A stretch of 64,000 nucleotides of DNA from Candidatus Saccharimonadota bacterium (lineage in GTDB: Bacteria > Patescibacteriota > Saccharimonadia > Saccharimonadales > Saccharimonadaceae), in contig JAPLYU010000001.1 of NCBI GenBank assembly GCA_026395405.1, positions 564,696 to 628,695 of the forward strand, read 5' to 3'. A model generated the notes under the pieces. The model was not told where the DNA came from. It did not search any database and saw nothing but the letters and a program-made list of their open reading frames with translations. The translations under genes and the position numbers were made by a program. Of this stretch, positions 1-60,132 are shown one piece after another; the first letter of the stretch is position 1; every line of letters begins with the position of its first letter.

Positions 1-2414
1 CTAACACAAATTCATTAACATGTGCAGACCCAACAACTCCCGCACAGTATGGTTATGTTGGAGGATTAACAACTTATACTCTGAAATACAAAGAGGAAGG
101 TGGTGGAGTTAAGGTTGCAGCTGTGGCACGACATACGGTGCCATCATCAAACTTTACTTTGGCAGTAAGGGTTGATCCTACAACTCCGTGGGGCAGCGTT
201 AGTGGCGGCGGTTCATTCGTATCCGGAGCAACGCCAACTATAACGGCGGCGCCTGGCTCATGGTATTCTTTCGATAAGTGGAACACGAGTGCAGATACAT
301 GGCCCTCAAGTGCAACAGATTGCTATTCACCCACAAATACGGCTAGTCACACCGTTACTATAGACACTCACAAGACTTGTGTTGCGAAATTCAAGGTTAC
401 ACCCGTAACAGCACCTTCGACACCTACGGTTTCACAAAATACCGTTGGTGCAACCACGACCTGGTCCTGGGGCGTTGCTAGCTGTAGTGGCGGTAACACG
501 CCTCAGTATAGATATGAATATACAATTCAACCATCAGGTTTTGATTCAGGTTGGGTAGGCACTGGAACACCTTCGGTAGCGTTAACTACTTCAACCGAAG
601 GTCAAACTTACGACATTGCGGTTCAGGCTCAATGTGCCAACCCGGTAACGACCAGTGCCTGGAGTGCATCAAGTGCATCGAGTCCTTATTATCGAGCGGT
701 GACAACACCGACAATCTCGGCTACAACGGCGTCCAGTACATCAATTGACGTATCTTGGCCAGCTAACTCATTTGCAATCAGTTACACGATGGACCGGTCA
801 CTTAGTTCATCGTTTACTAGCCCAACGACGATTACACAGGCGGGTACGACATATACGTCAACGGGATTAGCCCAAGGTACAACATATTATTTCCGAGTTA
901 AAACAAATGCCGGTAGTGGGTCCAGTGCTTATTCAACCACGGCAAATGCAACTACAACGATTGATCCTTGTACGGTGCCGGTAGACAATGCCAACACCGT
1001 AGGCGCTACCACAACCTGGACATGGAGCGCCCCAACTTGTCCTGGCGGAACATCTATCCGCTACCAATATCGTTATACAATTACGCCGTCCATGTTTGAC
1101 TCCGGTTGGACGGCAACAGCCGGAACATCAGTTGCATTTACGACATCATCCCAGGGACAAACATATAATGTGGCTTTGCAAGCCCAAGCCTACATCGGGG
1201 GAGTATCAAGTGCCTGGACTGCATCTGACAACGATAGTTATTACAGACCTAATACATATCTGTTAACTATAAATGCTGGTGCTAATGGTACGGTTAATGC
1301 AGGTGGTACGTATGATGAAGCAACAAACCAGACAATTACAGCCACACCAAATACATACTATTCATTCAGTAGCTGGACTGGAAGCACGGGGTGTAGTGGT
1401 ATAGCCAGCCATACCATACTCATGGATGCCGCCAAGACATGTACGGCCAACTTTACGCCTACCCCAATCTCTGCACCATCTGCTCCAACCGTTTCACAAA
1501 ATACCGTTGGTGCAACTACAACTTGGTCATGGGGCGCAGTATCTTGCCCGGGGAACTCTGTTAGGTATCAATACCGCAACACAAATGCTCCATCTGGATT
1601 CGACAGTGGTTGGGTTGGACCGCAAGCCGGAACCACTGTTGCACTTACTACCAGCACCGCTGGACAAACCTATACCGTGGCGGTCCAAGCCCAGTGTTAC
1701 AATACAGCTACTAGCAGCAGTTGGAGCGGATCTGGTTCGGCCGGATACTACAGCCCGTATTACACGCTAACCCTTGTTGCTGGAACATATGTCGGAATTA
1801 TCAGTGGCGGTGGTTCATCATATAGCTACAACGATACCGTCACAATGACTGCAGGCCCTGTCCAGACATATTACGAATGGGTAGGTTGGTCTGGCGATGT
1901 TGGGTGTAATGGTCTTATAAGCCATACAATAACTATGAACGCGAACAAAACATGCACAGCCTACGCTGATGCCGGGGTAGGCTGGTATCCTGGGCAGGGA
2001 GGTATGACAGGCAAATGGGTCTATCAAGCCGACATGGGGACAATGTATCAGTTCAAGACATCGGGCTCTAACGACGGTTCCCCACAAGCATTCACTGGAC
2101 TTGATACGACTAACCCTACATATGTGACCTTAATTAACCCTCAAATAAATACCAGTGAAACTTTTGCAGCCTATCCTGCGCAACAAGCTTGTATGACTCT
2201 TGGCGGTCGTCTGCCGACCGCAAGTGAATCGTTAGCGTTGTATAACTATAAAAACTCTTACGGCGGAGCATTTAATACCTCCCAAGGACTAAAAACAGCA
2301 GCCGAGGCGGCAACCAAAACTAGTAGTAGAACAAGAAATATGCTCACTGGGGCTGAAGCGACGAATGGCAAAACCTTAACCAATCCTGTCAGATGCGTTA
2401 AGGGTGCTTATTAA
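1..2414 (+). CDS. Giant type IV pilin-like surface protein, 5' end missing (InlB-B/Fn3 repeats)
   Basis: The reading frame is open to the left edge. Codons upstream of the GTG at 123 encode a stretch matching the post-pilin segment of the next gene (YGYVGG, KYKEEGGG, VAAVARHTVPSSN), so the real start and the pilin leader lie outside the window. Visible order: InlB-B-like repeat (an SFDKW then CVAKF pattern), Fn3-like modules beginning TPTVSQNTVGATTTWSW, a second InlB-B-like unit (TINAGANGTVNAGGTYD to CTANF), a further Fn3-like module, a third InlB-B-like unit, and a C-terminal domain with GGRLPTASE and NPVRCVKG resembling DUF1566/Lcl-type lectin-like domains. It is a tandem paralogue of the following gene with long near-identical DNA stretches. 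Likely a cell-surface or pilus-tip adhesin; the binding target is unknown. Confidence 0.85.
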   Translation, partial: NTNSLTCADPTTPAQYGYVGGLTTYTLKYKEEGGGVKVAAVARHTVPSSNFTLAVRVDPTTPWGSVSGGGSFVSGATPTITAAPGSWYSFDKWNTSADTWPSSATDCYSPTNTASHTVTIDTHKTCVAKFKVTPVTAPSTPTVSQNTVGATTTWSWGVASCSGGNTPQYRYEYTIQPSGFDSGWVGTGTPSVALTTSTEGQTYDIAVQAQCANPVTTSAWSASSASSPYYRAVTTPTISATTASSTSIDVSWPANSFAISYTMDRSLSSSFTSPTTITQAGTTYTSTGLAQGTTYYFRVKTNAGSGSSAYSTTANATTTIDPCTVPVDNANTVGATTTWTWSAPTCPGGTSIRYQYRYTITPSMFDSGWTATAGTSVAFTTSSQGQTYNVALQAQAYIGGVSSAWTASDNDSYYRPNTYLLTINAGANGTVNAGGTYDEATNQTITATPNTYYSFSSWTGSTGCSGIASHTILMDAAKTCTANFTPTPISAPSAPTVSQNTVGATTTWSWGAVSCPGNSVRYQYRNTNAPSGFDSGWVGPQAGTTVALTTSTAGQTYTVAVQAQCYNTATSSSWSGSGSAGYYSPYYTLTLVAGTYVGIISGGGSSYSYNDTVTMTAGPVQTYYEWVGWSGDVGCNGLISHTITMNANKTCTAYADAGVGWYPGQGGMTGKWVYQADMGTMYQFKTSGSNDGSPQAFTGLDTTNPTYVTLINPQINTSETFAAYPAQQACMTLGGRLPTASESLALYNYKNSYGGAFNTSQGLKTAAEAATKTSSRTRNMLTGAEATNGKTLTNPVRCVKGAY

Positions 2415-2485
2415 TTAATTCCGAGACATGGTACCATTTCGATATAAATATCTTTGATATACTTCCAATTTCATAGAATAAGCAC

Positions 2486-2491
2486 TATAAT
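2486..2491 (+). promoter_or_regulatory. -10 box TATAAT, leaderless promoter of the 961-aa pilin-like gene
   Basis: TATAAT ends 6 nt before the ATG at 2498. Initiation about 7 nt downstream of the hexamer would begin the mRNA at or next to the start codon. No Shine-Dalgarno is visible. Confidence 0.6.
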
Positions 2492-2497
2492 TGTCTC

Positions 2498-5383
2498 ATG
2501 AGAAGAAGGCTGTCTTTTGGGTATACCATAATCGAACTGGTAGTCGTAGTTGCTATTATTGGTGTACTGGCAGCGATAATAATTGTGGGATATTCTTCTG
2601 TTCAACAGGGGGCAAGAAATTCTCAGCGATCTACGGGATTAGTGGCAGTTTCAGAGGCACTTGAGAAATATTACAATCAAAATGGTGATTATCCGGCTTG
2701 TGCAGCAATTGTTTCGCCACAAACACCAACCCAAGTTGTAACTAACACTTTGGTTGGACTTGACCCAACTGATTTGACATCTCCAACTGATACGACCGGG
2801 ACTAATTCGTTTGCTTGCGGTGATCCAGCAACTCCTGCTAAATACGGCTATGTTGGTGGGTCGACCACTTTTTCGCTTAAATACAAAGAAGAGGGTGGTG
2901 GACTTAAGGTTGCGGCTGTGGCACGTCATACTGTGCCGTCTTCGAACTTTACTTTGGCTTTAAAACTAGACCCAGCAAATCCGAACGGTTCCGTCAGCGG
3001 ATCGGGTACATTCCCTTCGTATGTACCTGGAGCGACACCTACAATAACCGCAACCCCCAATGCTTGGTATTCATTCGATTTATGGACAGGTAGCGCATCG
3101 GACTGTTACACGCCAAATACAGCTAGCCACTCTGTAACCATGAGTGCTTATAAGACTTGTGTTGCGAAATTTAAGGTTACGCCCGTTACTGCACCTTCGA
3201 CACCTACGGTTTCACAAAATACAGTTGGCGCAACCACCACCTGGTCATGGGGTGCGGCTAGTTGTTCTGGTGGCAACACACCAGAATATAAGTATGATTA
3301 TACAATTACGCCAGCTGGTTTTGATTCTGGTTGGGTAGGCACTGGAACTCCTTCGGTAGCATTGACAACTTCAACCGAAGGTCAAACTTACGACATCGCA
3401 GTCCAAGCCAGGTGTGCCAACCCAGTAACGACTAGTGCCTGGAGCGCATCAAGCGTATCCAGTCCTTATTATAGAACTGTTACAACCCCGACAATATCAG
3501 CTACGCCTACATCAGGTACCTGTATAGATGTTTCCTGGCCAGTAAATTCGTTTGCCATCAGCTATACCATGGACCGATCACTAAGTTCGTCGTTTACCAG
3601 CCCTACGACGATTACCCAGGCTGGTACAACCTATTCGTCTTGCGGACTTGCACAGGGCACGACATATTATTTCCGAGTAAAGACCAGTGCTGGTGGGGGA
3701 TCAAGCGCTTATTCGACTACGGCAAATGCGACAACGCTAGTCGATACTCCAACACCAAACCCACCAACGATATCTAATAATGGCCCCGGAGATGGCACTT
3801 CTACTATTTGGACTTTTTCTGGTGAGACCTGCGGAAGCGGAGCAACACTACAATACCAATACCTTTACGATTATGGTCAAGCTAGCCCTGCCTGGGTCAC
3901 AACAGCAGCTACAACCGTGACCTTTACTACTTCTACCGAAGATGTAACATATAAAGTAACGGTCCAAGCTCGATGCTACGTCGGCGCTATATATAGTTCG
4001 TGGACATCCTCGAGCACAATAAGTACATATTATCGTCCAATTCCTATGTGTACGCTGACCGTAATTGGTGGAACTGGCGGTGGTTCATACGACTGCGGGG
4101 TTACACCTGCTACACCTACCATTACAGCTACTCCGAATGCCCATTATCACTTTACTAGTTGGACTGGAACTGCTGGATGTGTAGGTAGCGGCACAGCCAG
4201 CCACACCATAACAATGGCGTCACCAAGTATGACTTGTACGGCAAACTCTGCGCTTGATACCTACGTTCTAACCGTAAACTCTGCAGGTAACGGGTCGGCA
4301 AGTGGCGGCGGAACATATGATTGGAACACGCCCCATAACATTACGGCTACGCCAAATGCCAATTACCACTTTACTAGTTGGACTGGTTCTGGTTGTACGG
4401 GCGGAGGCACCCAAAATCCGTCAATAACGGTGACTGGAACCATAACTTGTACGGCTAATTTTGCAATTGATACTTATGTTCTAACCGTAAACTCTTCAGG
4501 CAATGGAACTGCAAGTGGTAGTGGAACATTTGATTATAATTCATCTCATACCATAACAGCTACCCCAAATACTTACTATCAGTTTAACAGTTGGTCTGGC
4601 ACTGGTTGTGCCGGCATACAAAGTCATAGTGTTACGATTACAGGCACAATGACGTGTACCGCGAATTTCTCAGTACAAGACACTACCCCAGTGCAACCGA
4701 CTGTATCGGTAGATTATACGTCCGGTCCTAATACGTATTTTATATGGAGCGCAACGTGTGCTAGCGGTTCAATTGTTGAATACCAGTGGTACCCGAATGC
4801 AGCTCCATGGGTTTATCTAGGTTCGGGCATAGTGGGTTTGGGATTGTCAACCCTCACGGTAAATACGTATTACGATGTATCCGTCCAGGCAAGATGCTAT
4901 AATGCGTCAATCCCTTACACTAGCGGCTGGAGTCAAAGTGGGGTAGCCGAATATTACCGAGATTACTGGTGGGCGGGAAATTATAGCGGAGCCCCTGCTT
5001 GGGTATACTATCAGTATGACGGAACGCTGCGCAGATATAAAACAGCTAATACCGCCAACGCCTCCCCGCAATCGGTCGGTGGTTCTCTAGTCAGCCCTCA
5101 AACAAACCCCGGTGTTGATTTTTCAGCATATCCGGCTCAGAACAATTGTAAGGCAATTGGCGGACGTACGCCAACACCAGGCGAACTATCGGCAATATAT
5201 AATTCGGTAAATGCAAACGGCAGTAATTTTTACCATGATGGGCTTGATACTTCCGCAGGAAATAGATCTAATCAAGAATATTCTACTGACAAAACCTATG
5301 CAGTTAACAGAAATATGTCTACCAACTCAGCAGCTGTTAGTTTAAAGGATAACAACAATCCAATAAGATGCGTAAAAGATTAA
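2498..5383 (+). CDS. Giant type IV pilin-like surface protein (961 aa)
   Basis: The N-terminus is a class III prepilin signal: a short basic leader, cleavage expected after Gly8, then YTIIELVVVVAIIGVLAA with Glu at mature position +5, followed by a pilin-like helix to about residue 65. The rest is a string of beta modules: an InlB-B-like repeat (about 150-230), Fn3-like modules (about 230-510), three InlB-B-like repeats (about 512-725; YVLTVNSAGNGSASGGG type), another Fn3-like module, and a C-terminal DUF1566-like domain (about 830-961; GGRTPTPGE, NPIRCVKD). Ordinary pilins are 120-200 aa, so this is a minor-pilin-anchored adhesin layout. No pilus assembly genes are in the window. A TATAAT box 6 nt before the ATG suggests leaderless translation. 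Confidence 0.88.
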   Translation: MRRRLSFGYTIIELVVVVAIIGVLAAIIIVGYSSVQQGARNSQRSTGLVAVSEALEKYYNQNGDYPACAAIVSPQTPTQVVTNTLVGLDPTDLTSPTDTTGTNSFACGDPATPAKYGYVGGSTTFSLKYKEEGGGLKVAAVARHTVPSSNFTLALKLDPANPNGSVSGSGTFPSYVPGATPTITATPNAWYSFDLWTGSASDCYTPNTASHSVTMSAYKTCVAKFKVTPVTAPSTPTVSQNTVGATTTWSWGAASCSGGNTPEYKYDYTITPAGFDSGWVGTGTPSVALTTSTEGQTYDIAVQARCANPVTTSAWSASSVSSPYYRTVTTPTISATPTSGTCIDVSWPVNSFAISYTMDRSLSSSFTSPTTITQAGTTYSSCGLAQGTTYYFRVKTSAGGGSSAYSTTANATTLVDTPTPNPPTISNNGPGDGTSTIWTFSGETCGSGATLQYQYLYDYGQASPAWVTTAATTVTFTTSTEDVTYKVTVQARCYVGAIYSSWTSSSTISTYYRPIPMCTLTVIGGTGGGSYDCGVTPATPTITATPNAHYHFTSWTGTAGCVGSGTASHTITMASPSMTCTANSALDTYVLTVNSAGNGSASGGGTYDWNTPHNITATPNANYHFTSWTGSGCTGGGTQNPSITVTGTITCTANFAIDTYVLTVNSSGNGTASGSGTFDYNSSHTITATPNTYYQFNSWSGTGCAGIQSHSVTITGTMTCTANFSVQDTTPVQPTVSVDYTSGPNTYFIWSATCASGSIVEYQWYPNAAPWVYLGSGIVGLGLSTLTVNTYYDVSVQARCYNASIPYTSGWSQSGVAEYYRDYWWAGNYSGAPAWVYYQYDGTLRRYKTANTANASPQSVGGSLVSPQTNPGVDFSAYPAQNNCKAIGGRTPTPGELSAIYNSVNANGSNFYHDGLDTSAGNRSNQEYSTDKTYAVNRNMSTNSAAVSLKDNNNPIRCVKD

Positions 5384-9739: not shown

Positions 9740-10711
9740 ATGATGATTAATTTTTGGAATGATTTAAATAAACCTTTTTTTATCCTCGCGCCCATGGAGG
9801 CGGTGACTGATATTGTATTCCGTCATGTCGTTGCAACCGCTGCCAAGCCTGATATATTTTTCACTGAATTTGCGAACGCAACCAGTTTTTGTAGCGAAAA
9901 GGGCAGACATAGCACAAAACGACGACTTTTATTCACAAGTGATGAACAGCCGATTGTCGCTCAAATTTGGGGGAACAATCCTGATAATTTTGCCAAAATG
10001 AGTGTCGAGCTCGCAAAAATGGGATTCAGTGGTATTGATATTAACATGGGATGCCCGGATAAGTCCGTATTAAAAACCGGGTCGGGTAGCGCACTTATAC
10101 GAACTCCTGAAGTTGCCGGGGAACTAATTCGCGCTGCAAAAACCAGTGGTTTACCCGTAAGTGTAAAAACCAGATTGGGTGATGTTTCAATCGAACAATG
10201 GAAAGATTGGATAGAATTTTTACTAAATCAAGATATTGCAAACCTGACTATACATTTAAGGACCAGAAAAGAGATGAGCAAAGTCGGTGCGCACTATGAA
10301 TTAATAACCGAAATCAAAAAACTTCGAGATAAGATTGCACCCAAAACATTACTTGCGATAAACGGTGATATCCGTGATAAACAACATGGGGTCGAGCTTG
10401 CAAATAAATATGAGATTGACGGGATAATGATTGGCCGCGGTATATTTACAAATCCATTTGCGTTCGACACCGAAAATAGGGGACATAGTCGCGTGGAATT
10501 ATTAGGACTTTTACAACTGCATCTGGATTTGTACGACAAATACTCAACCGAATCAGAACCTCTCAAGTTTGATCCATTAAAACGTTTTTTCAAGATGTAT
10601 GTTCATGATTTTCCAGGCGCCAGTGAACTTCGTGACAAATTAATGCACACAACAAACACAAAAGGAGTCCGTCAATTAATCAACGATTCTGACTTACTTC
10701 AGCCAAAGTGA
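9740..10711 (+). CDS. dus: tRNA-dihydrouridine synthase
   Basis: FMN-dependent reductase converting uridines in tRNA to dihydrouridine. Signatures in order: LAPMEAVTD at the N-terminus of the TIM barrel, [18 protein letters not shown] with the conserved catalytic Cys105, [20 protein letters not shown] with the FMN-proximal His/Arg, INGDIRD and [13 protein letters not shown] for phosphate binding. Length (323 aa) is normal; which Dus subfamily is unclear, with DusB-like features. Unlike most genes here it has a strong Shine-Dalgarno, held within a hairpin. A second ATG follows immediately. Its 3' end overlaps the convergent glycine-rich pilin gene by 18 nt. Confidence 0.93.
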
Positions 10712-13486
10712 TCCATATGCAAAGTACTCAGTAGTTCCAGTCCAATATGCCGCATCTTGAAAACTCCCACCACCAGCAAAGAAATTACCATTCCAACAAG
10801 CCGTATACCACCAAGGATGGTTGAGGTATGACTGTGCGCAGTTACTACCACCAACAGCGTCATGGTCACCATCAAATGTAGTGAAGGGGGAGTTGTTGTG
10901 GACTGTATAAAGTCCAGGGGCGGTGCTGCCGAGTAGTATATTTTGATTTGATAAATTTAATACATAAAAAGTAGCTGGGGATGATAACGAAACCGTGTAG
11001 GTTGCTTTATGGGATATAGACGAAGGCGTTGCCCCAACCTCGGCCCGAAGTGTTGTGCCTATATTATTCCAAAAACTTAGACCAACAAGCTGATCGAACG
11101 TAGTTAAATTAGAACCCGGTGTACCAGTAATTGTGTTTGACCCCGTTGCGTTGGCCCAATTTGGTGCTGGAGTCGTGACCGCGGCATTGTTTTGCAAAAC
11201 CAAAGTCCAACCACCTCCATCATCTGTCATATCACAATAAACATTTATACCCGTACTCCCACTTGGATAAATCCAATACATACCACTTCCAGTTGATTCT
11301 CCGGCATTTAGTATCGCCTGACAAGATGCACGTTGACCAGCTCCTACAACGAACCTACCACTACTTGTCATCGTGTGTATCGTATTTCCCCCAGAAGTGG
11401 TGATAACGCCACCAGAGGCTGTAATTGACCCGGTAAGGTAGGATACAATAACCACGCCCGAGCCACCAGCCCCGCCTACATATCCATAGTCAGAACCGCC
11501 GCCGCCGCCGCCAGTATTTGGAGTTCCGTCCACGCCATTAGTAAAGTTCCTGGTACCCTGACCACCGCCACCTGCACCTCCAGCTCCAATACTCCCAGCT
11601 CCACCATTATATGTGCCTCCACCACCGCCGCCTGAAAGATAATATGTTCCAGAAACATTTTGCCCAGTAGTTGAACCTGAGATAGGATTCGCGAAACCAG
11701 GTCCACCGTCACCTCCATTGTTCCCATTACCACCATATCCAGGGCTGCCGGCGCCACCACCGCCAGACCCGCCCCACCCAAAGGCAATTTGTGTACCACC
11801 GTCATTACCCTGATAATCTTGAAGGGCCTTGCCTCCTTTTTGTAATATCCCAGAATCAATAGGGCTAGCCCCGCCGCCACTCCCGCCATCACGACCAGAA
11901 CTTGCTCTGGTACCGCCGCCGCCGCCGCCAAAAGCTGTTATTTGAGAAAATGAGGAATCGCCACCATTTGACCCGGCTATTCCGTTATCGGGAGTTGTCG
12001 CACCTGCGCCGCCTAAACCAACCTTTACATTGTAAGTTTTCGTTGAAATTGGCAATGCTGGTTCGTAGACTAAACCGCCTGCGCCACCACCTCCTGCAAA
12101 AGCACCACCACCACCACCACCAGCTACAACTAAAACCTGTATCGTTGTTGCTGTATATTGTGTCGGTGTATCGACACTAGTTTGTTTATATTCGCGCCAA
12201 ATTGCTCCATTTGATGTTTTTAGTAATTGCGTTGAACCGACAGATTTTATTCTGCTTGCCTTATTATTGACAACCGTAGGGTATCCAACGGAAAAGGTCG
12301 AGATGGTAACACCACTATTAATGGAGGTTACATTTAATGAGCCGCTACCAGTAAAAGTTTGAATGGTGTTGCCAGACGAATAAGTTGTTGCTCCTCCTCC
12401 AGTAAAGGTAGGAGTTGCGGTAATAGAACCGGTAGGGTAAGAGATAATCACAATTCCCGAGCCACCTGCGGCACCCGAACCGCCACCGCCACCAGCGCCG
12501 CCACCACCGCCGCCACCAGTATTTACAACTCCTGCAGATCCATTCGGATAACCACCGTTACCCCCAACACTCGAGCCGCCAGTTCCATGCGTCCCATTAC
12601 TCCACGTGCTACCACCACCGCCACCGCCATAAAATAACGAGGTGCCGCTAATATTGTTTGATATACCCAAACCACCATTACCTGATATTGAAACTCCAGT
12701 AGGATTACCACCTATACCACCGGCGGCGCCGCCGCCAGCTGCCGGATATGGTGAACCAAAATAAGTCGAGGTAACTGTACCACCAGAATATCCCTGTCCA
12801 ACAGTGCCGGCACCGCCATTGGTTTGAACCGTACTGGTTGCGCCGCCGCCTCCTCCAGAACCGCCAGCAACAGCGGCATTGGCATTGTCATTAGGCCCTC
12901 CATGTCCACCACCGACTGCTGTTATTACTGTGCCAAATAACGAATTTCCACCATTGTTACTGCCAGCACCACCGTTAGCAGCACCGCCGCTACCGCTACC
13001 TCCTACGGTTACCGAGTATGTTTGAGGGATTAACGATAATGCAGAATTATAAACGACTCCGCCGCCGCCACCACCACCGCTAGTACCGCCGCCGCCGCCA
13101 GCAACCACTAATGCTTGTACCGTACCACCAGTGACAGTTACAGAGCAGCGCGCATCAGTCGAAGCTGTAGTGCAAACAAAACCAGGCAATTGATTCCCGG
13201 CACAATCAGTACCGGGTGTTAGCGGGTTGGCGTCGCTCCACATCGGTACTCCGCCATTAGCAGCCAGACACGCATTTGCGTATGCAATCCCGGCTTGACT
13301 AGCGTTTTCAGCTATTTGATTGTACGACTGAGATAATAATGAGGAACTGACCGCCGCCGTTGAAACTACCGAGACTAACAACACACCAAGCATTATTATC
13401 GAAGCTATCAAAACAGTAGGCAAGGCGAAGCCGTTTGAAGGGTTGGAGCTATTTGTTTTTTTGTCTGACGAACTGATAAGTCTCAC
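10694..13486 (-). CDS. Glycine-rich pilin-like surface protein with fibrinogen-like C-terminus (930 aa)
   Basis: The N-terminus has a cytoplasmic stretch of about 18 residues, then [19 protein letters not shown], a prepilin-like cleavage site and hydrophobic helix; position +5 is not Glu, as in PilX-like minor pilins. Two large Gly-rich blocks follow (about 120-350 and 445-690), each opening with VQ(A/V)LVVAGGGGG and closing with SG(I/V)VI(I/V)SY, the pattern of bacterial glycine-rich surface domains. The last 210 residues contain [24 protein letters not shown] and CWNGNF, matching the fibrinogen-related fold (often sugar- or glycan-binding). Likely an exposed adhesin on a pilus-type anchor. 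Gly codons are unusually CGCC-rich on the plus strand. Confidence 0.85.
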
Positions 13487-57849: not shown

Positions 57850-57876
57850 AGCTTAGTTTGCATCTCTAACTAAGCT
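57850..57876. other. Perfect 9-bp hairpin between the riboswitch gene and PIF1 gene
   Basis: AGCTTAGTT (57850-57858) and AACTAAGCT (57868-57876) with a 9-nt loop. It spans the stop codon of the upstream gene and abuts the TATAAT of the helicase gene. It lacks a T-run, so it is a weak terminator or an mRNA-stability structure. Confidence 0.45.
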
Positions 57877-59513
57877 GCTTTCTTTCCAGCCTCTTCAAGT
57901 TGTTGGAAAAAGCTTTTTGGGTTGGTTTTTTCGCTCGCTTGGGTCTCAAGTACCAATTTTCGTTTTTTTCTGTCAGTTTTTCTTTTTTCCCACTCTACCC
58001 TTTCGCGTTCTAATCGATCCCTCTCTTCTTCGTCTTGTTTTTGTTTTTGCTGTTCAAGTTTTACTTTCTCGGCATAGATTTTTTCCGGCGATTTTCCTTT
58101 TTCAAAAATATGATGGCAATGCACGCAAACATCACACCCCCCAACCAAAGTCTTGCTGTGTACATATTTTGATTCTCCTCTGGTAGGGCAGTTTTTAATT
58201 CGGCATACTCCTATTTTTGGTTTACCGAAATTCCCCAATTTATCATGAACTCCATATGCCTGTAAAATAGCGCTATTTTCAAATCCTGGTTGGCTCGCCG
58301 ACTGCTCGGTGGTTATACCGAATGTTGGGCATATGGTGTCATAAGTATCGCCGTTTGCAATTGCTTGGTTACTGCTGTGTACGGCGGTGTCATAACTTGC
58401 GTCATATCCAACATCTGAATTTTCAAGTTGGTTCAAGATTTTTTTATCAACCGTTGCAAATGAATGGATTACTCCTAATGAAACAGCTTCGAGTATCTCT
58501 CGAGCTTTGCTTGATGAAATCTTCTGTCCTTCATAAAGCCCACTTATTTCAAAGTCGATACAAACACGTGATATCTCTGGCGTAACCCTTCCCTCACTCA
58601 CCGCTAGCATCTCAACGGTTTTCGTGAAGACTGTCAGCAAATTCTTTTGAGACTTCACCATTTCAAAGCTATTTATATTTTTTATTCCCTCAGGAGTTTC
58701 GTTTCCAAAGCTATAATTTTTTTGGTTTTGTTTTGAAAGCAACCCATCATAAATACCTACATAATAGTCAATCAAATCACTAGTCGTTGCCAATTGAGGA
58801 TTACTAATTTCATAGGGGCTACCAAGAACTTCGAGGGCTGAATGGTAATTAGTCTCAACACCAAATTTTTTACGTAGCTCGTTAAACTGAGCTATGCTTG
58901 GGTTATTCAAAGAAAAATAACTACCTTCCAACAAATCCCCAACACGTTGATATATTCTTGTAACAGCAAAATCTTCACCCTCCATTAGTGGTAACGATTC
59001 AAAAATCAAAAACTCGCCTTCTTCAGCACCTTTAAACCATTCGCTGATAACACCGATTTCACGATTTTCTAATTTTGCCCTCTCGTATTCATCTTTTAGT
59101 TTTGGAGTTCTTGCAGATTCCTCTTTTACCCGTGGTAAATTTTTTTCCGTCATTTCAGTCAACGAAACTTTATCTCTAATCGATACAAAATCGCCTCCTA
59201 CGGGCTCAAAAAATACATGATTTTCGAAATGGTTAATGTCTTTTAGCTTTTCGGCGATTTCTGCTTCAAAATCAGGCATATAGTCAACATCGCCACACAC
59301 GACTCGACGATATAAATAAGTCAATGTATCATTATAACCAAGCTCTTCCGCTGAAATTTTAATTGCCTCACGCCCAACACGACGTTTACGATATTCTTCA
59401 ATATCAAAAACTCGTGCTTCGACTTGGTGCGATTCTTCAGTCCCTGACATCGGAGTTAGCAATTCTTGCGCCGATGTTTGTATGGTTTTTTCTAATACCC
59501 CTTGTTCCAACAA
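57870..59513 (-). CDS. Unknown protein with Cys-rich zinc-finger-like region, under a cobalamin-type riboswitch
   Basis: 547 aa, no recognised family. Residues 1-400 are soluble and acidic, with an unusual EGEFLIFESLPLMEG and EGSYFSLNNPS. Around 430-475, CRIKNCPTR...GGCDVCVHCHHIFEKG gives a C-x4-C...C-x2-C-x2-C-H-H pattern that could bind zinc. A highly charged coiled coil follows (about 475-530, KLEQQKQKQDEEERDRLERE). The start is TTG (59513; a second TTG follows), 4-7 nt after AGGAG. The Shine-Dalgarno is part of a switching hairpin downstream of a cobalamin-aptamer-like sequence. No B12 enzyme motif (such as DxHxxG) is visible. Confidence 0.75.
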   Translation of the reverse strand: MLEQGVLEKTIQTSAQELLTPMSGTEESHQVEARVFDIEEYRKRRVGREAIKISAEELGYNDTLTYLYRRVVCGDVDYMPDFEAEIAEKLKDINHFENHVFFEPVGGDFVSIRDKVSLTEMTEKNLPRVKEESARTPKLKDEYERAKLENREIGVISEWFKGAEEGEFLIFESLPLMEGEDFAVTRIYQRVGDLLEGSYFSLNNPSIAQFNELRKKFGVETNYHSALEVLGSPYEISNPQLATTSDLIDYYVGIYDGLLSKQNQKNYSFGNETPEGIKNINSFEMVKSQKNLLTVFTKTVEMLAVSEGRVTPEISRVCIDFEISGLYEGQKISSSKAREILEAVSLGVIHSFATVDKKILNQLENSDVGYDASYDTAVHSSNQAIANGDTYDTICPTFGITTEQSASQPGFENSAILQAYGVHDKLGNFGKPKIGVCRIKNCPTRGESKYVHSKTLVGGCDVCVHCHHIFEKGKSPEKIYAEKVKLEQQKQKQDEEERDRLERERVEWEKRKTDRKKRKLVLETQASEKTNPKSFFQQLEEAGKKAA

Positions 59514-59514
59514 A

Positions 59515-59690
59515 AAACTCCTGCTACTTGCGTGCAGGAATTAAATACTTATATTCATTACTCCTGCTCGGAAGATTTAAAACTGTATCGGACTTAGTAT
59601 TACTACATCACCGTTGCGGCACAGTCCCGGATTCACACCGGGTTCCAGTTGACTATTTGTTAATCACTTAATTATACGTCATAAAACAAG
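59515..59690 (-). promoter_or_regulatory. Cobalamin riboswitch-like aptamer with SD-sequestering switch
   Basis: Minus strand, the core at 59608-59646 reads GGAACCCGGTGTGAATCCGG then GACTGTGCCGCAACGGTGA, matching the conserved B12 aptamer core (GGTGnnAATCCGG, CTGnnCCGCAACGGT). A partial B12-box-like AGTCCGATAC lies at 59585-59594. Downstream, TCCTGC (59534-59539) can pair either with the upstream GCAGGAG (59561-59567) or with GCAGGAG (59518-59524), the Shine-Dalgarno of the TTG start, which is followed by TTTTTTG. Two mutually exclusive hairpins are therefore visible. Aptamer outer stems were not fully traced. Confidence 0.78.
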
Positions 59691-59694
59691 TTTG

Positions 59695-60132
59695 TTAAAG
59701 CATAAACTTGCCAGTTATTCGTTCTTCGCGGGCTTTGTTGGCCCACTTGTCAGCCAGTTCGTTGCTGATATTGCCTTCATGACCACGTACCCAAATTACT
59801 TTAGCATCGGCCTGTTTGTATAAACGACAAACTTCTTTGACGATATCCAAATTTTTTATTTCACCATTCTTTTTGACCCAACCGTTTGCTTCCCAACCCT
59901 TACCCCACTTCATAATCACATTAACCCAAAATTCGCTGTCGCTATAAATTTGGCATTGATCCTTGCCAGCATCGATTAGGGCTGTCATCATGGCTCGGCC
60001 CTCCATTCGAATGTTAGTCGACATTGGTTCATGCCCAACAATTGCCAGTTCGGTGTCTTTGATTACAGCAAAACCACCTGGGCCGGGGTTTGGACTGCAA
60101 CTGCCATCAGTATAATAAATTATCATCATCAC
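59695..60132 (-). CDS. rnhA: Ribonuclease HI
   Basis: Degrades RNA in RNA-DNA hybrids, including Okazaki primers and R-loops. 145 aa: YYTDGSCSPNPGPGGFAVI (first Asp), MEGRAMMTALIDA (Glu), IYSDSEFWVNVI (Asp) and WVRGHEGNISNELADKWAN (His and last Asp). Three Met codons open the frame; the third directly precedes the fold. AGGTG lies just upstream. Confidence 0.96.
   Translation of the reverse strand: MMMIIYYTDGSCSPNPGPGGFAVIKDTELAIVGHEPMSTNIRMEGRAMMTALIDAGKDQCQIYSDSEFWVNVIMKWGKGWEANGWVKKNGEIKNLDIVKEVCRLYKQADAKVIWVRGHEGNISNELADKWANKAREERITGKFML

Follow-up and report, generated by a model that had tools for sequence, protein, structure and literature searches.

A cobalamin-class riboswitch before an apparently undescribed gene family in Saccharibacteria

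A B12 riboswitch is a dependable sign of B12 biology. Repressing corrinoid riboswitches operate by an antiterminator/terminator logic (PMC10653944), the same as that considered below for a Saccharibacteria element. Of the proteins that come into the comparison, DUF4430 is known from vertebrates, where it forms the C-terminal domain of transcobalamins (PMC4350170), and in Lactobacillus a DUF4430 gene neighbours rtpR (PMC9963975). In the open-access literature searched, no paper joining cobalamin riboswitches with Saccharibacteria or Patescibacteria was found, nor any description of the protein family whose gene follows the element treated here; both the family and the B12 setting of its genes appear to be new. 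The preferred reading of the locus, held with a probability of roughly 0.6, is that a B12 OFF-switch governs a new B12-starvation protein which serves class II ribonucleotide reduction and likely replaces or helps a pair of proteins with the domains DUF4430 and DUF6580.

The riboswitch and its leader

A cmscan of the window (the whole stretch of DNA analysed, 64,000 nucleotides) gave RF00174 (Rfam Cobalamin) as the sole riboswitch match, at 59563-59686 on the minus strand, scoring 34.8 bits where the gathering score is 31.5, with a window E of 3.8e-5. A rescan of the narrow region 59450-59720, which the sequence-only reading had put forward as a check, was significant at E 1.6e-7; no Rfam family besides Cobalamin was significant in that region, and the other matches there were dismissed as chance. 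Only one such element occurs in the whole 855-kb genome (E 1.2e-7). The core strings on which the sequence-only reading was founded, GGTGTGAATCCGG, CTGTGCCGCAACGGTGA and AGTCCGATAC, were all found on the minus strand. Judged by its sequence, the element is a new member of the cobalamin riboswitch class RF00174, and its ligand is almost certainly a corrinoid. The loops L5 (UGCCG) and L13 (CG(A)GCA) could form five base pairs with one bulged A, both being near-invariant, so that the pairing is unproven by invariance; the bulged A is the sole variable position of L5/L13 in the alignment, whose elements were partly chosen by regex on these motifs. The features of the locus are collected in Table 1.

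Table 1. Positions of the riboswitch, leader and gene features in the window
Feature	Position	Strand	Basis or remark
Cobalamin aptamer proper	59581-59651	-	Core motifs, RF00174, two-sided changes in helices over 63 relatives
Aptamer base stem	59646-59650/59581-59585	-	Two-sided changes over 63 relatives
Aptamer P4	59638-59642/59626-59630	-	Two-sided changes over 63 relatives
Aptamer P6	59611-59613/59589-59591	-	Two-sided changes over 63 relatives
L5 loop UGCCG	59617-59621	-	Sequence; complementary to L13 CG(A)GCA
P13 hairpin CUUC-CGAGCA-GGAG	59561-59574	-	Two-sided change somewhere in each of the 4 stem pairs; cells paired, 96%
First GCAGGAG copy	59561-59567	-	Inside P13
TCCTGC switching strand	59534-59539	-	Would pair with P13 3' half (ON) or Shine-Dalgarno copy (OFF); alternative folds, arrangement kept in relatives
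Second GCAGGAG copy, holding Shine-Dalgarno	59518-59524	-	3' arm of sequestering hairpin; ends just before TTG start
Sigma-70-like promoter TTAACA-16-TATAAT	59671-59698	-	11/12 consensus matches; overlaps end of upstream RNase H gene
547-aa gene of undescribed family	57870-59513	-	Start TTG 59511-59513 or 59508-59510
Zinc-ribbon-like C-terminal cysteines C437, C442, C460, C463, C466	58116-58205	-	Invariant in 18 aligned relatives of same ribbon subtype

The potential of TCCTGC to pair with either of two GCAGGAG copies, claimed from the letters, was confirmed, with TCCTGC at the exact position given, and forced folding of 59500-59660 gave two near-isoenergetic and mutually exclusive structures, of -38.2 kcal/mol with the gene open and -37.8 kcal/mol with it closed. 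Each of the two alternative hairpins is far more stable than its dinucleotide-shuffled counterparts, at z -3.95 and -4.10. Six T (59512-59517, minus strand) directly follow the second GCAGGAG copy; a terminator search called no consensus terminator at 59518, the hairpin loop being 9 bases when read without a bulge, one above the limit. Control of the gene may thus be by termination, translation or both. The element first placed at 59515-59690 is real, with its bounds redrawn: the aptamer proper is shorter, the switching region extends beyond it to 59511, and the putative promoter reaches past the other end. A TTG-started gene with a Shine-Dalgarno copy had likewise been proposed correctly, the next in-frame TTG having the better Shine-Dalgarno spacing of the two. 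The leader is probably transcribed separately, despite an RNase H gene closely preceding, since the promoter-like sequence lies just upstream; about 0.8 sigma-70-like sites of this quality would arise by chance in a region of that size (mean of shuffles).

Conservation, controlled genes and class II reductase

RF00174 is present in 92 of 296 related genomes, with many relatives' elements scoring below the Rfam threshold, and a covariance model built from 63 aligned relative elements located the element in 124 of the 296. On the 63-sequence alignment RNAalifold gave 22 pairs, 15 of them with two-sided changes; the covariation score was 0.566 versus 0.164 in shuffles, and an independent count found 95% of cells paired versus 29-43% with the partner slid. 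The switch is kept along with the core upstream of orthologues, where the sequence-only reading had proposed to look for it: over 97 elements, all preceding family genes, the start-proximal hairpin is complementary, in its 5' arm and loop, to the loop and 3' arm of P13 to a greater degree than dinucleotide shuffles are (Wilcoxon p 1.4e-12), with the proviso that the automatic choice of hairpin mispicked for the window sequence, whose hairpin comes from separate folding. The chosen hairpin ends at most 14 nt from an in-frame start in 77 of the 97 relatives.

The first gene after the element was read for 129 elements, and 109 of these lead to one BLAST-linked family that contains the window gene. 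Three further elements (G213, G242, G047) precede genes alike in layout and without a BLAST link to the family. DUF4430-DUF6580 follows 12 of the 129, directly as DUF4430 in 11 and in G276 as well, where DUF6580 was first read and the DUF4430 gene sits between. B12-independent ribonucleotide reductases stand under three elements (class III NrdD twice, class I NrdA once), and in G238 (L062:7449-8893) the ORF after the element, of 428 aa, shows no more than a weak match to the alpha domain of class I reductase; for one element, in G137, the downstream gene is unassigned. In G085 NrdA and a family member are each under a switch. G022 has its family gene (L045, 4630-6145) split into two overlapping frames of 271 and 234 aa, by frameshift or assembly error. 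As a separate observation, the NrdD/NrdA elements (L121:3283-3390, L097:4414-4503, L098:11961-12065) have a fuller aptamer, a CTGCCT-type B12 box and a longer upstream stem, and the compact form precedes family genes, so that two riboswitch subtypes coexist in the clade, in G085 on one contig.

The window's genome encodes a class II NrdJ (TIGR02504, 625 bits versus a cut-off of 400), the reductase detected there, and its nrdJ adjoins a gene for a CobO-type corrinoid adenosyltransferase. The PF02310 B12-binding domain is absent from this genome; a class II reductase needs no such domain. A tie to B12-dependent ribonucleotide reduction, ventured in the sequence-only reading, gains comparative support from this neighbourhood and from the element's tracking of NrdJ: the element occurs in 113 of 139 NrdJ genomes versus 11 of 157 others (296 genomes, Fisher 2e-42, shared descent uncorrected), NrdJ presence being judged from profile scores with fragmentary matches excluded. 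Outside the window's genus and within its family the counts are 14 of 18 NrdJ genomes versus 0 of 132 others. Three fairly complete genomes (G055, G239 and G247, at L215, L112 and L194) have the riboswitch and a family gene with NrdJ undetected, and may hold another B12 enzyme or reductase, or a missed NrdJ.

The protein family and its exchange with DUF4430-DUF6580

That the gene resembles no known B12 family had been noted from its translation, and searches agree: the window gene matches no Pfam, NCBIfam or PHROG family, and none is matched consistently among 60 relatives. A TraV match in the Pfam search was dismissed as chance, and a sub-threshold CobA match of a PIF1 helicase as P-loop similarity. 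The family profile recovered 19 of 20 family genes left out of its making, with E-values no higher than 5e-14. Subfamilies share very little identity, and over the members the mean column identity is 13%; the conserved residues are E88, R145, E149, S173, P175 and C395 together with a C-terminal cysteine cluster. The window protein carries the conserved cysteine pairs expected of a zinc ribbon, and a ribbon is accordingly predicted for it. From hydropathy the family product is predicted to be soluble. Neither membrane segment nor signal peptide was detected in the family, 3 of 109 members (probably with over-called starts) exceeding a hydropathy of 1.6 versus 11 of 11 for DUF4430, and a direct role in uptake is therefore not obvious. 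Membership in DUF4430 finds no basis, with no PF14478 in the window gene or genome and no hydrophobic anchor in the family.

An AlphaFold model made with six sequences had a pLDDT of 61 (core about 80; domain alone 74.6). Foldseek of this predicted model against PDB and viral models gave no match at E <= 0.001, a profile search of PDB sequences none at E < 0.04, and the fold and sequence comparisons no match in support of corrinoid binding. Residues 95-250 are weakly PAS-like, with a Z of 5.5 (84 residues at 3.5 A), or 4.9 when the domain is taken by itself, values that fall short of what unrelated folds usually give; with these weak Z scores and no Foldseek match, a PAS fold was not accepted. 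A sub-alignment search of GTDB contigs found five relatives only, all Saccharibacteria or bacterial/Patescibacteria records, and a viral origin is without support since the same search found no relatives in viral contigs. In another class of Patescibacteria, one locus (L236) has the order nrdJ, PduO-type adenosyltransferase, element and a 443-aa putative distant family member, which aligns over the family profile at E 1.4e-6 in a six-sequence search; its kinship is a lead, because in 187 genomes sampled across the phylum the family profile gave no match beyond the order. Elsewhere in the window, at 123-5383 and 10694-13486, there are candidate surface or adhesin proteins: two large repeat-rich neighbours, of which the second has an N terminus like that of type IV pilins, and, on the opposite strand, a protein very rich in glycine.

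Neither DUF4430 nor DUF6580 is found in the window's genome. In the genomes that have them, DUF4430 (PF14478) and DUF6580 (PF20221) co-occur in 33 of 34, often under a B12 riboswitch or beside nrdJ-cobO, and elsewhere in Patescibacteria RF00174 elements precede DUF4430-DUF6580 beside nrdJ and cobO (L239, L240; L243 and L244 similar). Further example loci are L130:7081-8049 and L145:4629-5560. The pair is a probable system of B12 capture and membrane uptake, in which DUF6580 is probably the B12-specific membrane uptake component; this tie of DUF6580 to B12 uptake is a by-product of the work.

Family and pair nearly exclude one another. DUF4430 occurs in 4 of 103 NrdJ genomes with the family versus 20 of 36 without (p 6e-11, shared descent uncorrected), or in 6 of 107 versus 18 of 32 after the addition of four family genes found only by protein profile, away from a detected switch; the riboswitch served to count family presence everywhere but in the window's genus and in 65 chosen genomes, the latter covered by the protein search. 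A protein search of 29 DUF4430-positive genomes found family genes in two. Both systems occur in seven genomes, and neither was detected in 14 NrdJ genomes, some of them fairly complete. Among NrdJ genomes of the window's genus, DUF4430 is present in 0 of 6 with the family versus 10 of 11 without. The p-values overstate independence, because the genomes counted share ancestry; better evidence comes from the interleaved tree and a shared genomic slot. Exchange has recurred: placed on an NrdJ tree of 14 congeners, the family and pair labels require four changes, of which two or more are forced, and the sister genomes G025 and G019 differ in state. NrdJ species of this genus have either nrdJ-DUF4430-DUF6580-cobO, or nrdJ-cobO with a riboswitch-family cassette elsewhere, the cassette lying at no fewer than four different locations with the riboswitch alone constant. 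Elsewhere in the order the usual site of the element is flanked by lexA or uppP on one side and nadD on the other, a slot that holds the family gene in most genomes and DUF4430-DUF6580 in G258, G269 and G276, as well as in G148, G255, G257 and G279 (partial context). One operon combines both in two genomes, as family-DUF4430-DUF6580 in G223 and as DUF4430-DUF6580-family in G283.

Interpretation and comparison with known systems

The proposed mechanism starts from a corrinoid-bound aptamer, in which L5 would kiss L13 and P13 would be stabilised. This would release TCCTGC to pair with the GCAGGAG copy that holds the Shine-Dalgarno and so hide the ribosome site, in a hairpin that with its six U would also be terminator-like; without B12, TCCTGC would instead bind the 3' half of P13, and the gene would be expressed. 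From this arrangement it is very likely that the ligand represses the gene. The product would serve organisms obliged to obtain B12 for their class II ribonucleotide reductase, most likely by taking over, or helping, the job of the DUF4430-DUF6580 pair. A B12-related role for the protein is very probable, and for acquisition or handling of B12 in particular the chances appear about even. Getting or handling B12 is favoured because the gene trades places with, and twice shares an operon with, the likely capture and uptake pair. The fuller proposal, that the family is the core of an undescribed Patescibacteria system for cobalamin acquisition or handling, in which a soluble zinc-ribbon protein repeatedly replaces DUF4430-DUF6580 under the same riboswitch and sustains the class II reductase, is put forward tentatively and falls somewhat short of an even chance. 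The sequence-only reading is otherwise supported, the ligand, the OFF direction and the protein's job remaining inference within it.

The protein might instead belong to a B12-independent or B12-sparing deoxynucleotide route, a backup for NrdJ when B12 is short and not a means of acquiring it. B12-independent isozymes are a classic riboswitch target (PMC10653944), the same kind of switch stands over NrdD in two genomes and NrdA in one, the protein looks cytosolic, and near-exclusion with DUF4430 would fit two alternative answers to B12 shortage. However, a reductase or nucleotide-metabolism domain was found in none of 60 family members, the G283 and G223 operons speak for a partner of DUF4430-DUF6580 and not an alternative to it, and G085 has its switch-controlled NrdA and family member together; a route of this kind is accordingly considered unlikely. 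Lower still is the standing of a protein exported by a non-classical path, which would free or capture B12 through an action on the host bacterium or on the cell surface. Saccharibacteria do rely on other bacteria for vitamins, as in the case of thiamine (PMC10409787), and the strong divergence (the 13% identity given above) and changing C-terminal ribbons are as for host-specific factors, but a signal peptide or export motif was not seen and divergence alone has other causes, which makes export improbable. That the RNA keeps the cobalamin aptamer fold but responds to a different signal, or no longer binds a ligand, is very improbable. The window element does exceed the Rfam threshold by just 3.3 bits, and the scores of many relatives lie under it, but the covariation is strong, the core is invariant, and the position before NrdD, NrdA and DUF4430-DUF6580, near nrdJ and adenosyltransferase genes, is consistent.

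If the preferred reading of a B12-repressed starvation gene holds, DNA synthesis in these bacteria would depend on B12 from others, and the gene is a testable candidate for meeting a shortage. In more than 100 species of host-dependent bacteria the B12 riboswitch points to a family without recognised relatives. A natural ligand-controlled switch is also on offer for bench work with Saccharibacteria; a 2024 review sees promise in riboswitches for the inducible expression of genes in Patescibacteria (PMC11665869).

Compared with known systems, the element is like RF00174 (clan CL00101) in its core sequences, helices P3-P6, P13 hairpin and possible L5-L13 pairing, and like the P. megaterium metE switch in that the P13 3' side alternatively pairs with the 5' arm of the terminator/ribosome-site hairpin (PMC10653944). 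It differs from RF00174 in being compact, with a short base stem and L5 UGCCG versus the consensus UCCCG (PMC10653944), and in governing an undescribed gene family, in Saccharibacteria/Patescibacteria. The DUF4430-DUF6580 pair resembles the window family in having the same switch, the same lexA-nadD slot and NrdJ genomes, and adjoins nrdJ-cobO in other species; it consists of a small membrane-anchored protein and a membrane protein, without sequence similarity to the soluble-looking window family. Riboswitch-controlled, B12-independent reductases are represented by NrdD and NrdA below related elements in three relatives, whereas the window gene is without a reductase domain and the reductase detected in its genome is of the B12-dependent class II.
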